DNA of 58,941 nucleotides from Rhodobiaceae bacterium (GTDB taxonomy: Bacteria > Pseudomonadota > Alphaproteobacteria > RS24), in contig JAHEGN010000008.1 of NCBI GenBank assembly GCA_024645085.1, positions 36,818 to 95,758 of the forward strand, read 5' to 3'. The notes under the pieces were generated by a model that worked only from the letters and a program-made list of their open reading frames with translations, made no database searches and was not told the DNA's origin. The translations under genes were made by a program, and so were the position numbers. Positions within the stretch are counted from its first letter, which is position 1; each line of letters begins with the position of its first letter. Shown here piece by piece: positions 35,645 through 48,463 of this stretch.

Positions 35645-36481
35645 CTACTTTTTACGCATTTCAGGATCGGGTTCATGATCATTGTAGAGGTTCAAAATGG
35701 CGCTGGCCACCTCTTCAATGGAGCGCCGCGTCACGTCGAGAACCGGCCATTTTTGCCGCGCAAATAAGCGCCGCGCGTCAGCCGTTTCGGTTTTGATAAG
35801 ATCCGGATCAACATATTCCGTCTCGGCGTCTTCGTTCAAACTCATCAAGCGGTTTTTGCGCACTTGCACCAAACGCTCTGTGCTGGTGGTCAAGCCAACC
35901 ACCAAGGGGCGGCGCACGTCGAGCAATTCTTGCGGCGGCGCAATGCCCGGCACCAGCGGCACATTGGCGGCCTTAATGCCGCGATTGGCCAAATACATAC
36001 AGGTCGGGGTTTTTGACGTGCGACTAACGCCAGTCAAAATAATATCGGCATCGTCGAGATCGCCCTGACTTTGGCCATCATCGTGTTGAATGGTATAATT
36101 AAGCGCCGCAATGCGGCGAAAATAATCAGTGTCCATAGCGTGCTGGCCGCCCGGTTTACCGCTGATTTCAGCGTTCAAATAGGCACCCAAGGCGGTAACA
36201 AAAGGGTCGAGCACGGACATGCAGGGAATGTTAAGCTGGTCGCAGGCCTGCTGCAGTTTTTTGCGCAAGTCAGCGTCCAAGATAGAATACATGACCGGCC
36301 CGGGGTTCTCGGTGACCGAGCCAATGGCGCGGGTCAGCGCCTTTTGCCCGCGCACCAAACCATAGGAATGTTCAACCGCTTGCGCGTCGACAAACTGCGC
36401 ACAAACCGCCTTTGCCAAAGCGTTGACGGTTTCACCCGTACTGTCAGAAATCATATGTAGGTGAAAATAAGTGACGCTCAC
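35645..36481 (-). CDS. ppsR: Bifunctional PEP synthase/PPDK regulatory protein (kinase-pyrophosphorylase, DUF299)
   Basis: This family switches PEP synthase or pyruvate phosphate dikinase off and on by ADP-dependent phosphorylation and phosphate-dependent dephosphorylation. The diagnostic core is ADIILTGVSRTSKTPTCMYL, a P-loop-like segment, with N-terminal FHLHMISDSTGETVNALA. The longest frame begins at 36559, but homologues start close to YFHLHMISDSTGE, so I prefer the GTG at 36481, which has GGAG upstream; that gives 278 residues. It is the first gene leftwards from the origin and heads ppsR-maf-aroE-coaE-dnaQ. The target kinase gene is not in the window. Confidence 0.92.
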   Translation of the reverse strand: MSVTYFHLHMISDSTGETVNALAKAVCAQFVDAQAVEHSYGLVRGQKALTRAIGSVTENPGPVMYSILDADLRKKLQQACDQLNIPCMSVLDPFVTALGAYLNAEISGKPGGQHAMDTDYFRRIAALNYTIQHDDGQSQGDLDDADIILTGVSRTSKTPTCMYLANRGIKAANVPLVPGIAPPQELLDVRRPLVVGLTTSTERLVQVRKNRLMSLNEDAETEYVDPDLIKTETADARRLFARQKWPVLDVTRRSIEEVASAILNLYNDHEPDPEMRKK

Positions 36482-36551
36482 GTCGGCTCCAGACAATGTG
36501 AATAATGTTAATAGCGAGGATAAGTCGCCCCCCGCAGCAAGCCAAGCTATT

Positions 36552-36560
36552 TTGTTCACA
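36552..36560 (+). promoter_or_regulatory. DnaA box 1 (TTGTTCACA)
   Basis: One base differs from TTATNCACA (G at position 3). It lies 71 bp from the ppsR start, so DnaA bound here could also influence ppsR. Confidence 0.6.
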
Positions 36561-36678
36561 ATCGGTGTTTTTCCATACGCCGGTTTGCACCGGGTTATTA
36601 ACTCGCCGCAAACACCTTGTCATATCGGGGATAAAATATCGGCCGCTCCAGCAAGCCTATTTATCCCTCTTATTAACG

Positions 36679-36687
36679 TTATTCACA
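36679..36687 (+). promoter_or_regulatory. DnaA box 2 (TTATTCACA)
   Basis: Full match to TTATNCACA, in the middle of the ppsR-hemE gap and next to a GCGCGC inverted repeat at 36689-36712. Confidence 0.75.
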
Positions 36688-36764
36688 GGCGCGCTTGCGT
36701 CAGTATGCGCGCTGGTTTTTTTCTGTGCTGTTTATAATATGCAGAAATATTTTTGTTTTCCCCA

Positions 36765-36773
36765 TTATTCACA
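36765..36773 (+). promoter_or_regulatory. DnaA box 3 (TTATTCACA)
   Basis: Full match to TTATNCACA. It follows an AT-rich tract and is five bases from the next box, in the same orientation. Confidence 0.75.
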
Positions 36774-36778
36774 GCCAG

Positions 36779-36787
36779 CTATCCACA
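36779..36787 (+). promoter_or_regulatory. DnaA box 4 (CTATCCACA)
   Basis: Differs from TTATCCACA only at the first base. Together with box 3 it forms a close tandem pair on the hemE side of the origin. Confidence 0.7.
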
Positions 36788-36796
36788 GGCCAAGAT

Positions 36797-36805
36797 TGTG
36801 GGCAA
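36797..36805 (-). promoter_or_regulatory. Possible weak DnaA box (TTGCCCACA, inverted)
   Basis: Two mismatches from TTATCCACA, in opposite orientation, nine bases after box 4. A low-affinity site is possible. Confidence 0.35.
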
Positions 36806-36860
36806 AACACCGACTAATGAATAATCCCCAGAAAGCTTGCGACACAACAACAACTACTAT

Positions 36861-36878
36861 TATTTATCTATATAAATA
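36861..36878. repeat. AT inverted repeat at the hemE edge of oriC
   Basis: TATTTAT and ATAAATA flank a four-base centre, a perfect 7-bp inverted repeat 23 bp before the hemE ATG. It could be the easily melted part of the origin, part of the hemE promoter, or both. Confidence 0.5.
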
Positions 36879-36901
36879 GAATGGTTCAGTGAAAGTTTAA
36901 T

Positions 36902-37927
36902 ATGTCTATGAAACCTCTGCTTCAGCTCTTTGCCCATCAAGACGTTCCCGATGTGCCACCAATTTGGTTGATGCGCCAAGCGGGTCGATATCTTCCAGAG
37001 TATCGTGCAACGCGTGAAACAGCAGGCGGGTTTCTCAATCTTTGTTACACGCCAGAGCTAGCAGAGGAAGTTACTCTGCAACCTATTCGCCGTTATGGGT
37101 TTGATGCGTCAATTTTATTTGCTGATATTTTGCTCATCCCGCAAGCCCTCGGGCAGAAGTTGTGGTTTGAGACCGGGGAAGGCCCGCGGCTGACGCCGAC
37201 TGTTAATGCTGATGGCTTAGAGGGTAGCGATATTATGCAGACGTTGGCGCCGGTTGCTCAAACGGTGGCGCGGCTATCAAAAAGCCTTCCTCCGGAGACC
37301 ACATTGATTGGGTTTGCCGGTGCTCCATGGACGGTTGCGACCTATATGGTGGCGGGTCGCGGGACGCCAGACCAAGCGCCGGCGCGCGAGTTGGCACTAA
37401 ATAATCCGAATGATTTTCAAGCGATTATCGACCTATTGGTGGCGGCAACGATTGAGTATTTGTCGGCACAGATTGAAGCCGGTGCAGAAGTGGTGCAGAT
37501 TTTTGAGAGCTGGGCCGGTTCCTTGCGCGGGGTCGAGTTTGAGCGTTGGTGTATTGAGCCGGTAGCTGAAATTATTGCTGGCCTGCGGGCGCGCGGACAT
37601 CAGCAGCCGGTGATTGGTTTTCCGCGCGCTGCTGATTATGACATGGGGGTCTATGTTGCGCGCACCAAATGTCAGGCTCTGGGGTTAGATACATTCGCCA
37701 ATCGGCGCGAGATTATGGCGCAAGTGCCAGAAGAAATAATTCTGCAGGGCAATTTAGATCCGCTGGTTCTGGTTGAAGGTGGCGATGCTCTGGATAGAGC
37801 CGTTGATGAGATTTTTGACGACTTTGCTGGTCGGCGTTTTATTTTTAATCTTGGCCATGGTATTGTGCCGCACACACCACCCGACCATGTTGCTCAACTG
37901 GTTAAAAAAATAAGGAAAATAAAATGA
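36902..37927 (+). CDS. hemE: Uroporphyrinogen decarboxylase
   Basis: HemE decarboxylates uroporphyrinogen III to coproporphyrinogen III in heme synthesis. The family signature PIWLMRQAGRYLPEYRA is at residues 20-36. Further matches include ASILFADILLIPQALG, IGFAGAPWTVATYM and the C-terminal FNLGHGIVPHTPPDHV. At 341 residues it is standard. It is the first gene rightwards from oriC, as in Caulobacter, and overlaps hemJ by four bases (ATGA). No strong ribosome site is visible; a second Met two codons on is an alternative start. Confidence 0.98.
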   Translation: MSMKPLLQLFAHQDVPDVPPIWLMRQAGRYLPEYRATRETAGGFLNLCYTPELAEEVTLQPIRRYGFDASILFADILLIPQALGQKLWFETGEGPRLTPTVNADGLEGSDIMQTLAPVAQTVARLSKSLPPETTLIGFAGAPWTVATYMVAGRGTPDQAPARELALNNPNDFQAIIDLLVAATIEYLSAQIEAGAEVVQIFESWAGSLRGVEFERWCIEPVAEIIAGLRARGHQQPVIGFPRAADYDMGVYVARTKCQALGLDTFANRREIMAQVPEEIILQGNLDPLVLVEGGDALDRAVDEIFDDFAGRRFIFNLGHGIVPHTPPDHVAQLVKKIRKIK

Positions 37928-43998: not shown

Positions 43999-44014
43999 TG
44001 TTTCACGTGAAACA
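43999..44014. other. parS centromere site 1
   Basis: A perfect 16-bp copy of TGTTTCACGTGAAACA lies in the mnmE-mnmG gap. This is the universal chromosomal parS sequence bound by ParB. Flanking A and T extend the symmetry to 18 bp. It is about 7 kb from oriC and 2.6 kb upstream of parA. Confidence 0.97.
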
Positions 44015-45978: not shown

Positions 45979-46611
45979 ATGTCACCGCAAGATTTTTCCG
46001 CGCAGTTCAATGTTTCACGTGAAACAATGCAGCAGCTTGTGACCTATCAAGCGCTGTTGGGTAAATGGCAGCAGAAAATCAACCTCGTTGGCCCGGCCAC
46101 ACTCGAACAGTTTTGGACCCGCCATGTCGCCGACTCGGCGCAGCTTCTGGGCTTGGCGGACGCCGATCACCTAAGCTGGCTCGATCTTGGCAGTGGTGGT
46201 GGCTTTCCCGGTCTTGTCTTGGCGATGATGTTGCAGCCGCGCGGCGGCTATGTGCATTTGGTCGAGAGCGATGAGCGCAAAGTGGCGTTTCTGCGCACGA
46301 TTATTCGCGAAACCGGCGCCCCGGCTGAGGTGCATTTAAGCCGGATTGAGGCGCTGGCTGCGGATCAACCCGAGGCTTTGGCGGGCGTGCAGGTGATTAC
46401 CGCGCGGGCTTTGGCGGCTTTGCCGAAACTCTTACCATGGGTGGCGCCATTTTTCACTTCATCCACAATTGCGCTGCTGCATAAGGGGCGCGGATGGCAA
46501 GAAGAATTGACGGAGGCCGAACAATCGTGGAAACTACAGGCTGAGATTATCCAAAGCGTTACCGATGAGGCGGCGCGGATTATCAAAGTAAGCCAATTGG
46601 CGCAATTGTAA
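45979..46611 (+). CDS. rsmG: 16S rRNA (guanine(527)-N7)-methyltransferase RsmG (GidB)
   Basis: RsmG methylates G527 of 16S rRNA using SAM. The N-terminal LLGKWQQKINLVGPATLEQFW and the SAM motif WLDLGSGGGFPGLVLA are diagnostic, followed by VESDERKVAFLRTI. At 210 residues it is normal. The first codons double as DNA: a complete parS palindrome encodes part of QFNVSRETM near residue 12, a well-known coincidence in alphaproteobacteria. It lies in mnmE-mnmG-rsmG-parA-parB, with parA 41 bp downstream. Confidence 0.97.
   Translation: MSPQDFSAQFNVSRETMQQLVTYQALLGKWQQKINLVGPATLEQFWTRHVADSAQLLGLADADHLSWLDLGSGGGFPGLVLAMMLQPRGGYVHLVESDERKVAFLRTIIRETGAPAEVHLSRIEALAADQPEALAGVQVITARALAALPKLLPWVAPFFTSSTIALLHKGRGWQEELTEAEQSWKLQAEIIQSVTDEAARIIKVSQLAQL
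46011..46026. other. parS centromere site 2, inside rsmG
   Basis: A second perfect TGTTTCACGTGAAACA lies in the 5' coding end of rsmG, where it encodes VSRET. It is about 2 kb from site 1. The two sites flank mnmG and probably form the ParB-nucleating cluster for origin segregation. Confidence 0.97.
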
Positions 46612-46652: not shown

Positions 46653-47483
46653 ATGAATGATCTAGAGACCGCAAAACCAGCCGCCCCGCGCATGATGTGC
46701 ATGGCCAACCAAAAAGGTGGCGTGGGCAAGACTACCACGGCGATTAATTTGGGCACGGCGCTGGCGGCGATCGGCGAACCGGTGCTGATGATTGATTTGG
46801 ACCCGCAAGGCAATGCAAGCACTGGCATGGGGCTTGACCGCGAAGCCCGTAAACACACAAGTTTTGAAGTATTATTGGGTGACGAGCCGCTGGAAGCGGC
46901 GATTCACACCACAGCCGTGCCCGGATTTGACGTTATACCCTCCAGTATGGACCTTTTGGGGGTCGAGGTTGAGCTGTCAGACAACCCGCGCCGGCTTTAT
47001 CGTCTTAAGGACGAACTAGCCGCATTTCTGGGAAAAAACCCTGAAAATGCCCGCCGTTATAAATATATTTTCGTCGATTGTCCGCCAAGTCTGAATATGT
47101 TGACGCTCAATGCCATGGTAGCGGCGCAATCTGTTTTAGTGCCGCTGCAATGTGAATTTTTTGCGCTTGAAGGGCTGAGCCAGCTGTTGCACACGATTGA
47201 TCAGGTGAAGGACGGCCTCAATGCCGATCTCGACATTCAGGGCATTGTGCTGACGATGTATGATTTGCGCAATAATTTGTCAGCACAAGTTGAGGATGAT
47301 GTTCGCACGCATTTCGCCGACATGGTTTATCAAACCGTCATCCCACGCAATGTGCGCGTGTCGGAGGCGCCGTCATTTGGCAAACCGGCGCTGCTTTATG
47401 ATCACAAATGCGCCGGCAGTCTGGCTTATATGAAATTGGCGTCGGAACTTATTCAGCGCGAGCGCAAACGCACCGCAAGTTAG
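46653..47483 (+). CDS. parA: Chromosome partitioning ATPase ParA (Soj)
   Basis: ParA is the DNA-binding ATPase that moves ParB-parS complexes apart. The deviant Walker A is ANQKGGVGKTTTAINLG (Lys21 and Lys26), with Walker A' MIDLDPQGNASTG and Walker B FVDCPPSLNMLT. The 276 residues fit the chromosomal Soj type without the plasmid N-terminal HTH. It is followed eight bp later by parB and preceded by rsmG. Two parS sites are immediately upstream. Confidence 0.98.
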   Translation: MNDLETAKPAAPRMMCMANQKGGVGKTTTAINLGTALAAIGEPVLMIDLDPQGNASTGMGLDREARKHTSFEVLLGDEPLEAAIHTTAVPGFDVIPSSMDLLGVEVELSDNPRRLYRLKDELAAFLGKNPENARRYKYIFVDCPPSLNMLTLNAMVAAQSVLVPLQCEFFALEGLSQLLHTIDQVKDGLNADLDIQGIVLTMYDLRNNLSAQVEDDVRTHFADMVYQTVIPRNVRVSEAPSFGKPALLYDHKCAGSLAYMKLASELIQRERKRTAS

Positions 47484-47491
47484 GAAAACAA

Positions 47492-48463
47492 ATGGCAGAA
47501 CGTAAACGTGGACTGGGACGAGGCTTGTCGGCCTTGATTGGCGAGACGACAAAAAAAGTTTTGGACGAGGCGGCGCCGGTTGCGGCGCAACCAAACGCCG
47601 ACACGACGGCGGCGTCACCCGCAACAGTCGGCGGCAACGGACAAGGCTTTCAGCTTCTTGGCATAGACCAATTAGTGCCAGGCAAGTTCCAGCCGCGCCG
47701 CCATTTTGATGAAGAAGAATTACGCGCTCTTGCAAACTCGCTTGAAAAATCAGGTGTGCTACAGCCTCTATTGGTGCGGCCGCTGAGCACAGCTGAGGGC
47801 GCCAAAGGTGCGGCGCAATTTGAAATCATCGCCGGTGAAAGACGCTGGCGGGCGGCGCAATTGGCTAAGCTGCATAATGTACCGGTGATTGTTCAGGCGC
47901 TCAGCGATAGCGTTGCATTAGAAGTTGGCATTATTGAAAATGTTCAGCGCGCCGACCTCAATCCGATTGAAGAAGCCGAAGGATATCAACGGCTTATTGA
48001 AGAGTTCGCTTATACTCAGGCGGAGCTTGCCGAGGCCATCGGCAAGAGCCGAAGTCATATTGCCAATATTTTGCGCCTGACCTCGGCGACGCCAAAAGTG
48101 CGCGACGGGCTGATTATGGGCACGTTGAGCATGGGCCACGCGCGTGCCCTTTTGGGCCACCCGCAGGCTGACCAATTGGTTAAGAAAATTATCGCCGAAG
48201 GCCTCAGCGTGCGGGCCGTGGAAGCGCTGGTCGCGCAAACCAAATCGGACGGTAGCAAAACCAACAAAGCCAAAAGTGAGTCCAGGGCGGGAACGAAAAC
48301 CGCCGACACGCGTGCCCTTGAAAAAACCTTGGCTGATCGTTTAGGTCTGAACGTCACGCTTGATGATAAAGGTGACGGTAGCGGCGGTCAGTTGCATATT
48401 GAATATAAATCGCTTGAGCAATTGGACGCCTTGATTACGCATTTGCTGGCGCGCCACGATTAG
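47492..48463 (+). CDS. parB: Chromosome partitioning protein ParB (Spo0J), parS-binding CTPase
   Basis: ParB loads on parS and spreads as a CTP-dependent clamp. The N-terminal KRGLGRGLSALIG tag contacts ParA. The CTP-binding box is IIAGERRWRAAQLAKL near residue 112-125, with EVGIIENVQRADLNPIEEA. The HTH appears as YTQAELAEAIGKSRSHIANIL near 173-193. A Lys/Ser/Thr linker leads to the dimerisation domain. The longest frame starts inside parA, but ATG 47492 after a TAGGAAAA ribosome site matches the family, giving 323 residues. It is convergent with holA, ten bp away. Confidence 0.98.
   Translation: MAERKRGLGRGLSALIGETTKKVLDEAAPVAAQPNADTTAASPATVGGNGQGFQLLGIDQLVPGKFQPRRHFDEEELRALANSLEKSGVLQPLLVRPLSTAEGAKGAAQFEIIAGERRWRAAQLAKLHNVPVIVQALSDSVALEVGIIENVQRADLNPIEEAEGYQRLIEEFAYTQAELAEAIGKSRSHIANILRLTSATPKVRDGLIMGTLSMGHARALLGHPQADQLVKKIIAEGLSVRAVEALVAQTKSDGSKTNKAKSESRAGTKTADTRALEKTLADRLGLNVTLDDKGDGSGGQLHIEYKSLEQLDALITHLLARHD

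Follow-up and report, generated by a model that had tools for sequence, protein, structure and literature searches.

The intergenic region between ppsR and hemE in this Rhodobiaceae genome, positions 36483-36901 of the 58,941-nucleotide stretch of DNA that was analysed (the window), is very probably the chromosomal origin of replication. It is likely to represent the oriC of a small-genome alphaproteobacterium, placed at hemE and a COG1806 gene as in Caulobacter and Rickettsia, with the timing of initiation set by DnaA. The hemE-adjacent position is in itself expected, being the known site of the origin in Caulobacter and Rickettsia (PMC1914354), and the region is an ordinary alphaproteobacterial chromosome origin. 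It is bounded by two divergent genes:

35645-36482, minus strand: ppsR/DUF299 (COG1806), the left boundary (NF003742, E=1e-95; PF03618), with an assumed GTG start near 36482
36483-36901, no strand: putative oriC, intergenic between ppsR/DUF299 and hemE (GC-skew minimum, DnaA-box cluster, family conservation)
36902-37927, plus strand: hemE, uroporphyrinogen decarboxylase, the right boundary (TIGR01464, above cut-off)

The origin region is 419 bp long and has a GC content of 42%, as compared with 55% for the window. When the GC skew is cumulated along the contig (95,758 bases), the minimum falls at window position 36960, slightly inside hemE; it should be noted that the skew evidence comes from this single 95.8-kb piece of a draft assembly and from stretches sampled in two relatives, as opposed to a closed chromosome. 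In one of these family relatives, G006, which has a 1.04-Mb contig, the skew is negative in 15 of 15 samples up to 748 kb and positive in 5 of 5 from 780 kb, with hemE at 777 kb, and in the other, G008, the sign flips at hemE, with a local minimum at 606651 within the gene (606063-607070). An intergenic position between hemE and the COG1806/DUF299 gene, a box cluster above chance and a change in the sign of the skew, the features by which a hemE-linked oriC is recognized, are all found here. The first-pass annotation had proposed an origin at the ppsR-hemE divergence and had named a skew minimum elsewhere as an observation that would count against it; the minimum at 36960 bears the proposal out, and the switch in gene direction that it described corresponds to the PF03618/PpsR-type gene on the minus strand and hemE on the plus strand. 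The nearest named records are metagenome-assembled genomes, one of which, 'Rhodobiaceae bacterium UBA7378', has 66% identity in HemE. Partition elements, namely two perfect parS sites and parAB, are found 7-12 kb from the origin:

43999-44014, no strand: perfect parS TGTTTCACGTGAAACA (motif scan)
46011-46026, no strand: perfect parS TGTTTCACGTGAAACA, inside the rsmG coding sequence (motif scan)
46653-47483, plus strand: parA-type partition ATPase gene (ORF, ParA-family models)
47408-48463, plus strand: parB, start codon uncertain (TIGR00180, above cut-off)

The DnaA boxes of the region are arranged as follows:

36497-36523, minus strand: three head-to-tail 9-bp DnaA-box-like units forming a conserved 27-bp block (sequence, family alignment)
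36552-36560, plus strand: one-mismatch DnaA box TTGTTCACA, which recurs in several relatives
36679-36687, plus strand: exact DnaA box TTATTCACA, which recurs in several relatives
36765-36773, plus strand: exact DnaA box TTATTCACA (motif scan)
36779-36787, plus strand: one-mismatch DnaA box CTATCCACA (motif scan)

The only three exact matches to TTATNCACA in the whole 58.9-kb window, at 36497 on the minus strand and at 36679 and 36765 on the plus strand, are all inside the origin region, a number not reached in any of 20,000 sequences generated with a first-order Markov model at matching length and composition. The cluster of DnaA boxes claimed previously is therefore real and far above chance, with three exact and two one-mismatch boxes. 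The claim of a weak inverted box holds as regards the inverted orientation of the box at 36497 but not as regards its weakness, since the match is perfect; the weak box that was meant may instead be a TTGTGGGCA-like sequence near 36795. The 27-bp inverted three-box block at 36497-36523, like the trio tract and unwinding element at 36822-36865 described below, was absent from that annotation. Read on the minus strand, its units are TTATTCACA (exact), CTATTAACA and TTATCCTCG, and the family consensus of the block in the alignment is gTGaAT.AtGTGaAtA..gAGGATAAG. The architecture of the origin is common to the 21 family origins that were aligned, two further loci (L033 and L034) having been left out as not anchorable. 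In 6 of 6 origins from relatives of genus g3 (L027-L032), the outermost inverted DnaA box (TGATTCACA) shares bases with a GANTC, unlike in the genus of the window.

The part of the region next to hemE contains the components of a candidate unwinding element:

36822-36830, plus strand: degenerate, trio-proximal DnaA box TAATCCCCA (family alignment)
about 36843-36901, no strand: AT-rich tract, 77% AT, with an imperfect AT inverted repeat, the presumed DNA-unwinding region (sequence)
36854-36865, plus strand: DnaA-trio tract CTACTATTATTT, unique in the 59 kb of the window

An AT-rich tract adjoining hemE had been noted before, and its 77% AT content agrees with that description. The trio-proximal box, TAATCCCCA, has two mismatches in the genus of the window and is also found in the relative G001, and most relatives have TAATCCACA, TTATCCACA or TAATCAACA at this position. 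The strand opposite to CTACTATTATTT reads 3'-GAT-GAT-AAT-AAA-5', and the run sits in a family-conserved ACAaCtAC tract; no further trio run behind a box was found in an additional 270 kb of the genome. The signature of a BUS element is a DnaA box, a spacer and DnaA-trios, with a spacer of up to 16 bp allowed in the search rule (PMC8287927). Under this rule, with a box of at most two mismatches and at least three trios with a central A, a box and four trios are present here at a strict spacing of 23 bp, whereas a reading with a 14-bp spacer requires three degenerate trios. The segment resembles the published BUS in its box, spacer and trios beside an AT-rich tract, but differs in the degeneracy of the proximal box and in the length of the spacer in the strict reading. 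The 36822-36865 segment is likely, judging from its sequence, to be a BUS element of imperfect form, and the trio tract at 36854-36865 is the likely point at which unwinding would start.

Origin location, skew, boxes, trios, gene presence and promoter motifs are resolved from the sequence, and from these we infer how DnaA may bind, where the DNA may unwind, how initiation may be timed and in which direction regulation may run. DnaA-ATP would load onto the box array at 36497-36787, and a DnaA filament nucleating at the box at 36822 would capture the trio strand at 36854-36865, upon which the AT-rich tract beside hemE would open for helicase loading. The timing of initiation would probably be set by DnaA itself, as opposed to origin-bound CtrA or CcrM sites in the origin, and CcrM and GcrA would remain in the cell and probably work through promoters.

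The first-pass annotation also reported that the region is free of GANTC, GATC and TTAA-N7-TTAA, and a motif scan of 36483-36901 confirmed all three absences; the scan for the CtrA motif was also negative with the less strict TTWW-N7-TTWW pattern (PMC1914354), and a consensus scan of the origin found no IHF site. However, the conclusion drawn from the missing GANTC, that the control of initiation differs from that of Caulobacter or rhizobia, is not supported. GANTC is rare throughout this genome, with 270 sites in 329 kb of sampled sequence (0.82/kb, 0.21 of expectation or about 5-fold depleted) and 28 in the window (0.12 of expectation), as compared with 0.44-1.68 of expectation for control pentamers overall and 0.47-1.68 for those in the 329 kb. 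At the sampled density, 0.34 sites are expected in 419 bp and the probability of an empty stretch is 0.71 (about 0.7-0.8 overall); for GATC the expectation is 0.74 and the probability of finding none is 0.48. Because both absences are expected by chance, they are uninformative, and the lack of GANTC was rejected as a sign of different control. Depletion of GANTC is the published norm in alphaproteobacteria, and in Caulobacter without ccrM the control of initiation stays normal (PMC3973325). Furthermore, the genome of the window encodes an intact CcrM with N6_N4_Mtase and RAMA domains, together with intact GcrA, DnaA and CtrA; CcrM and GcrA each have the NCBIfam model of that name as their best match, with a score below its curated cut-off. 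A CcrM match is present in 26 of 28 family genomes, including 15 of the 15 best, although the G007 matches are less strong and could belong to other methyltransferases. The ccrM, gcrA and ctrA promoters of the window's genome contain GANTC.

The absence of CtrA sites requires a different assessment. Only 11 full CtrA motifs were counted in 1.7 Mb of the genome, a density at which a stretch of 419 bp would likewise be expected to have none by chance; several of the 11 are inside ORFs, and as a set they give no clear indication of the classic CtrA targets. The absence acquires some weight solely from its extension to all of the scanned family origins, none of which has a full CtrA site. Among 103 hemE-upstream regions from across the class, 2 have a full CtrA site and many, including those of Rhodobacterales and Bradyrhizobium, have no DnaA boxes; this comparison is weak because hemE regions without boxes may not mark the origin. 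According to a review, CtrA sites are reported for the origins of Caulobacter and possibly Rickettsia and for no other alphaproteobacterial origins (PMC4468827), and CtrA does not bind the origin of S. meliloti (PMC4433202). To lack CtrA sites is therefore usual for such origins, and in this respect the region resembles the rhizobia. The earlier suggestion that their absence indicates a different mode of control is plausible but describes an ordinary situation, and the contrast with rhizobia fails.

The occurrence of ctrA itself varies within the family. The ctrA gene of the window's genome (G000:C30:2952-3635) encodes a protein with 52% identity over 222 amino acids to a Caulobacter CtrA query, and its best NCBIfam model is CtrA, below the cut-off. 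Full-length, orthologue-level matches to this CtrA (at least 41%) were found in 16 of 28 family genomes. A few others have incomplete or broken matches, and the remaining genomes, including G008, which is 99% complete, have only OmpR-type matches of roughly 26-36%. The family slot for ctrA is between cysQ and mnmA, and the gene is missing from this slot in G008 (C4, L195) and G019 (C4, L190), in which cysQ and mnmA are adjacent. In G012 (C12, L191) and G015 (C2, L192) the slot contains ctrA remnants with stop codons, and in G010 parts of ctrA are in different frames, possibly as a result of a sequencing error. ChpT (PF10090) was detected in 0 of 28 family genomes, whereas 71 of the 109 good genomes from the class have it. 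It should be recognized that the family consists of draft or metagenome-derived genomes, in which gene absence can be taken as firm only if supported by synteny, as in G008 and G019. CtrA looks dispensable in the family, and the layout of the origin in genomes without detected ctrA, such as L029 of G008, is the same as in the others.

Two alternative views of CtrA at the origin can be weighed against these observations. That the origin has escaped both CcrM and CtrA control, in a departure from Caulobacter and the rhizobia alike, would fit the lack of both types of site, the loss or breakage of ctrA and failure to detect ChpT, and the indifference of the layout to the presence of ctrA; this is nevertheless rather unlikely, since the GANTC absence matches chance, CcrM is retained and cell-cycle promoters have GANTC, family origins vary in that some carry GANTC and others none, the rhizobial contrast fails on S. 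meliloti, and the window's genome has kept an intact ctrA. Direct repression by CtrA through degenerate half-sites, for example TTAA at 36508, 36598 and 36673, is improbable. Caulobacter CtrA employs half-sites at promoters (PMC4287350), the encoded CtrA has the receiver aspartate and a CtrA-type C-terminal motif, and the family conserves a TTATTAA-like element near 36596, but even the looser rule finds no intergenic site and the same conserved elements remain in family genomes without ctrA, such as G008.

What may have replaced CtrA is suggested by the promoter of ccrM, a gene that is driven by CtrA in Caulobacter (PMC2877005, PMC4287350). With the conserved GDC codons as the anchor (loci L185-L187 and L197-L216), an exact TTATCCACA DnaA box in minus-strand orientation precedes the anchor by 107-146 bases in 21 of 23 family genomes. 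Because the exact motif family is rare (TTATNCACA occurs 7 times in a 270-kb genome sample), this conservation is far from chance. The ccrM promoters contain 2-5 GANTC in 23 of 23 family genomes, and a scan of them for full CtrA sites was negative. In the window's genome, four GANTC and a single exact DnaA box are crowded into about 40 bases upstream of gcrA (L012:1200-1500), and the region upstream of ctrA has one GANTC, which is not present in three relatives checked. The weakest alternative, that the box cluster at hemE is a mere DnaA-regulated hemE/ppsR promoter and the real origin is elsewhere, for example at dnaA, gains something from these boxes at ccrM and gcrA but is very improbable, as the skew minimum, parS and parAB, the gene-direction switch, the trio tract and the family-wide conservation coincide at hemE and there is no exact DnaA box in the 300 bp upstream of dnaA.

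As a hemE-linked and probably DnaA-timed origin, the region can be compared with characterized systems. The Cori of Caulobacter crescentus has the same flanking genes, several DnaA boxes and an AT-rich tract, and the same four regulators, DnaA, GcrA, CcrM and CtrA, are encoded in both genomes. However, Cori contains five sites for CtrA, one for IHF and several GANTC (PMC1914354, PMC3973325), none of which is found in the window's origin, and its weak G- and W-boxes (PMC4468827) differ from the consensus-type boxes present here. The origins of Rickettsia and Wolbachia are similarly hemE-linked, with few DnaA boxes in about 400 bp; most have CtrA and IHF sites, unlike the origin described here, but some, like it, have no CtrA site (PMC1914354). 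Sinorhizobium meliloti and Brucella also combine genomic ctrA and ccrM with origins that are not bound by CtrA; the ccrM promoter of Brucella is, however, bound by CtrA, whereas the ccrM promoters of this family have the DnaA box instead. Predicted DnaA sites on ccrM, lack of ctrA and lack of chpT characterize clusters C, D and E, respectively, of Brilli et al. 2010 (PMC2877005), and these traits co-occur within the family of the window, with the ccrM box in 21 of 23 genomes. The elements are therefore precedented, but their combination in one family seems to be new, the ccrM box having been scanned in this family alone.

The conserved ccrM box, the missing or stop-broken ctrA in four genomes, the undetected ChpT and the retention of CcrM lead us to a tentative reading, possible but short of probable, in which the circuit has been rewired: DnaA, as opposed to CtrA, would drive ccrM and also gcrA, CtrA would be dispensable and have been repeatedly lost, and the origin would depend on DnaA only. 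Family members with intact, broken and missing ctrA share one origin layout, and they constitute a natural experiment on the loss of a master cell-cycle regulator.
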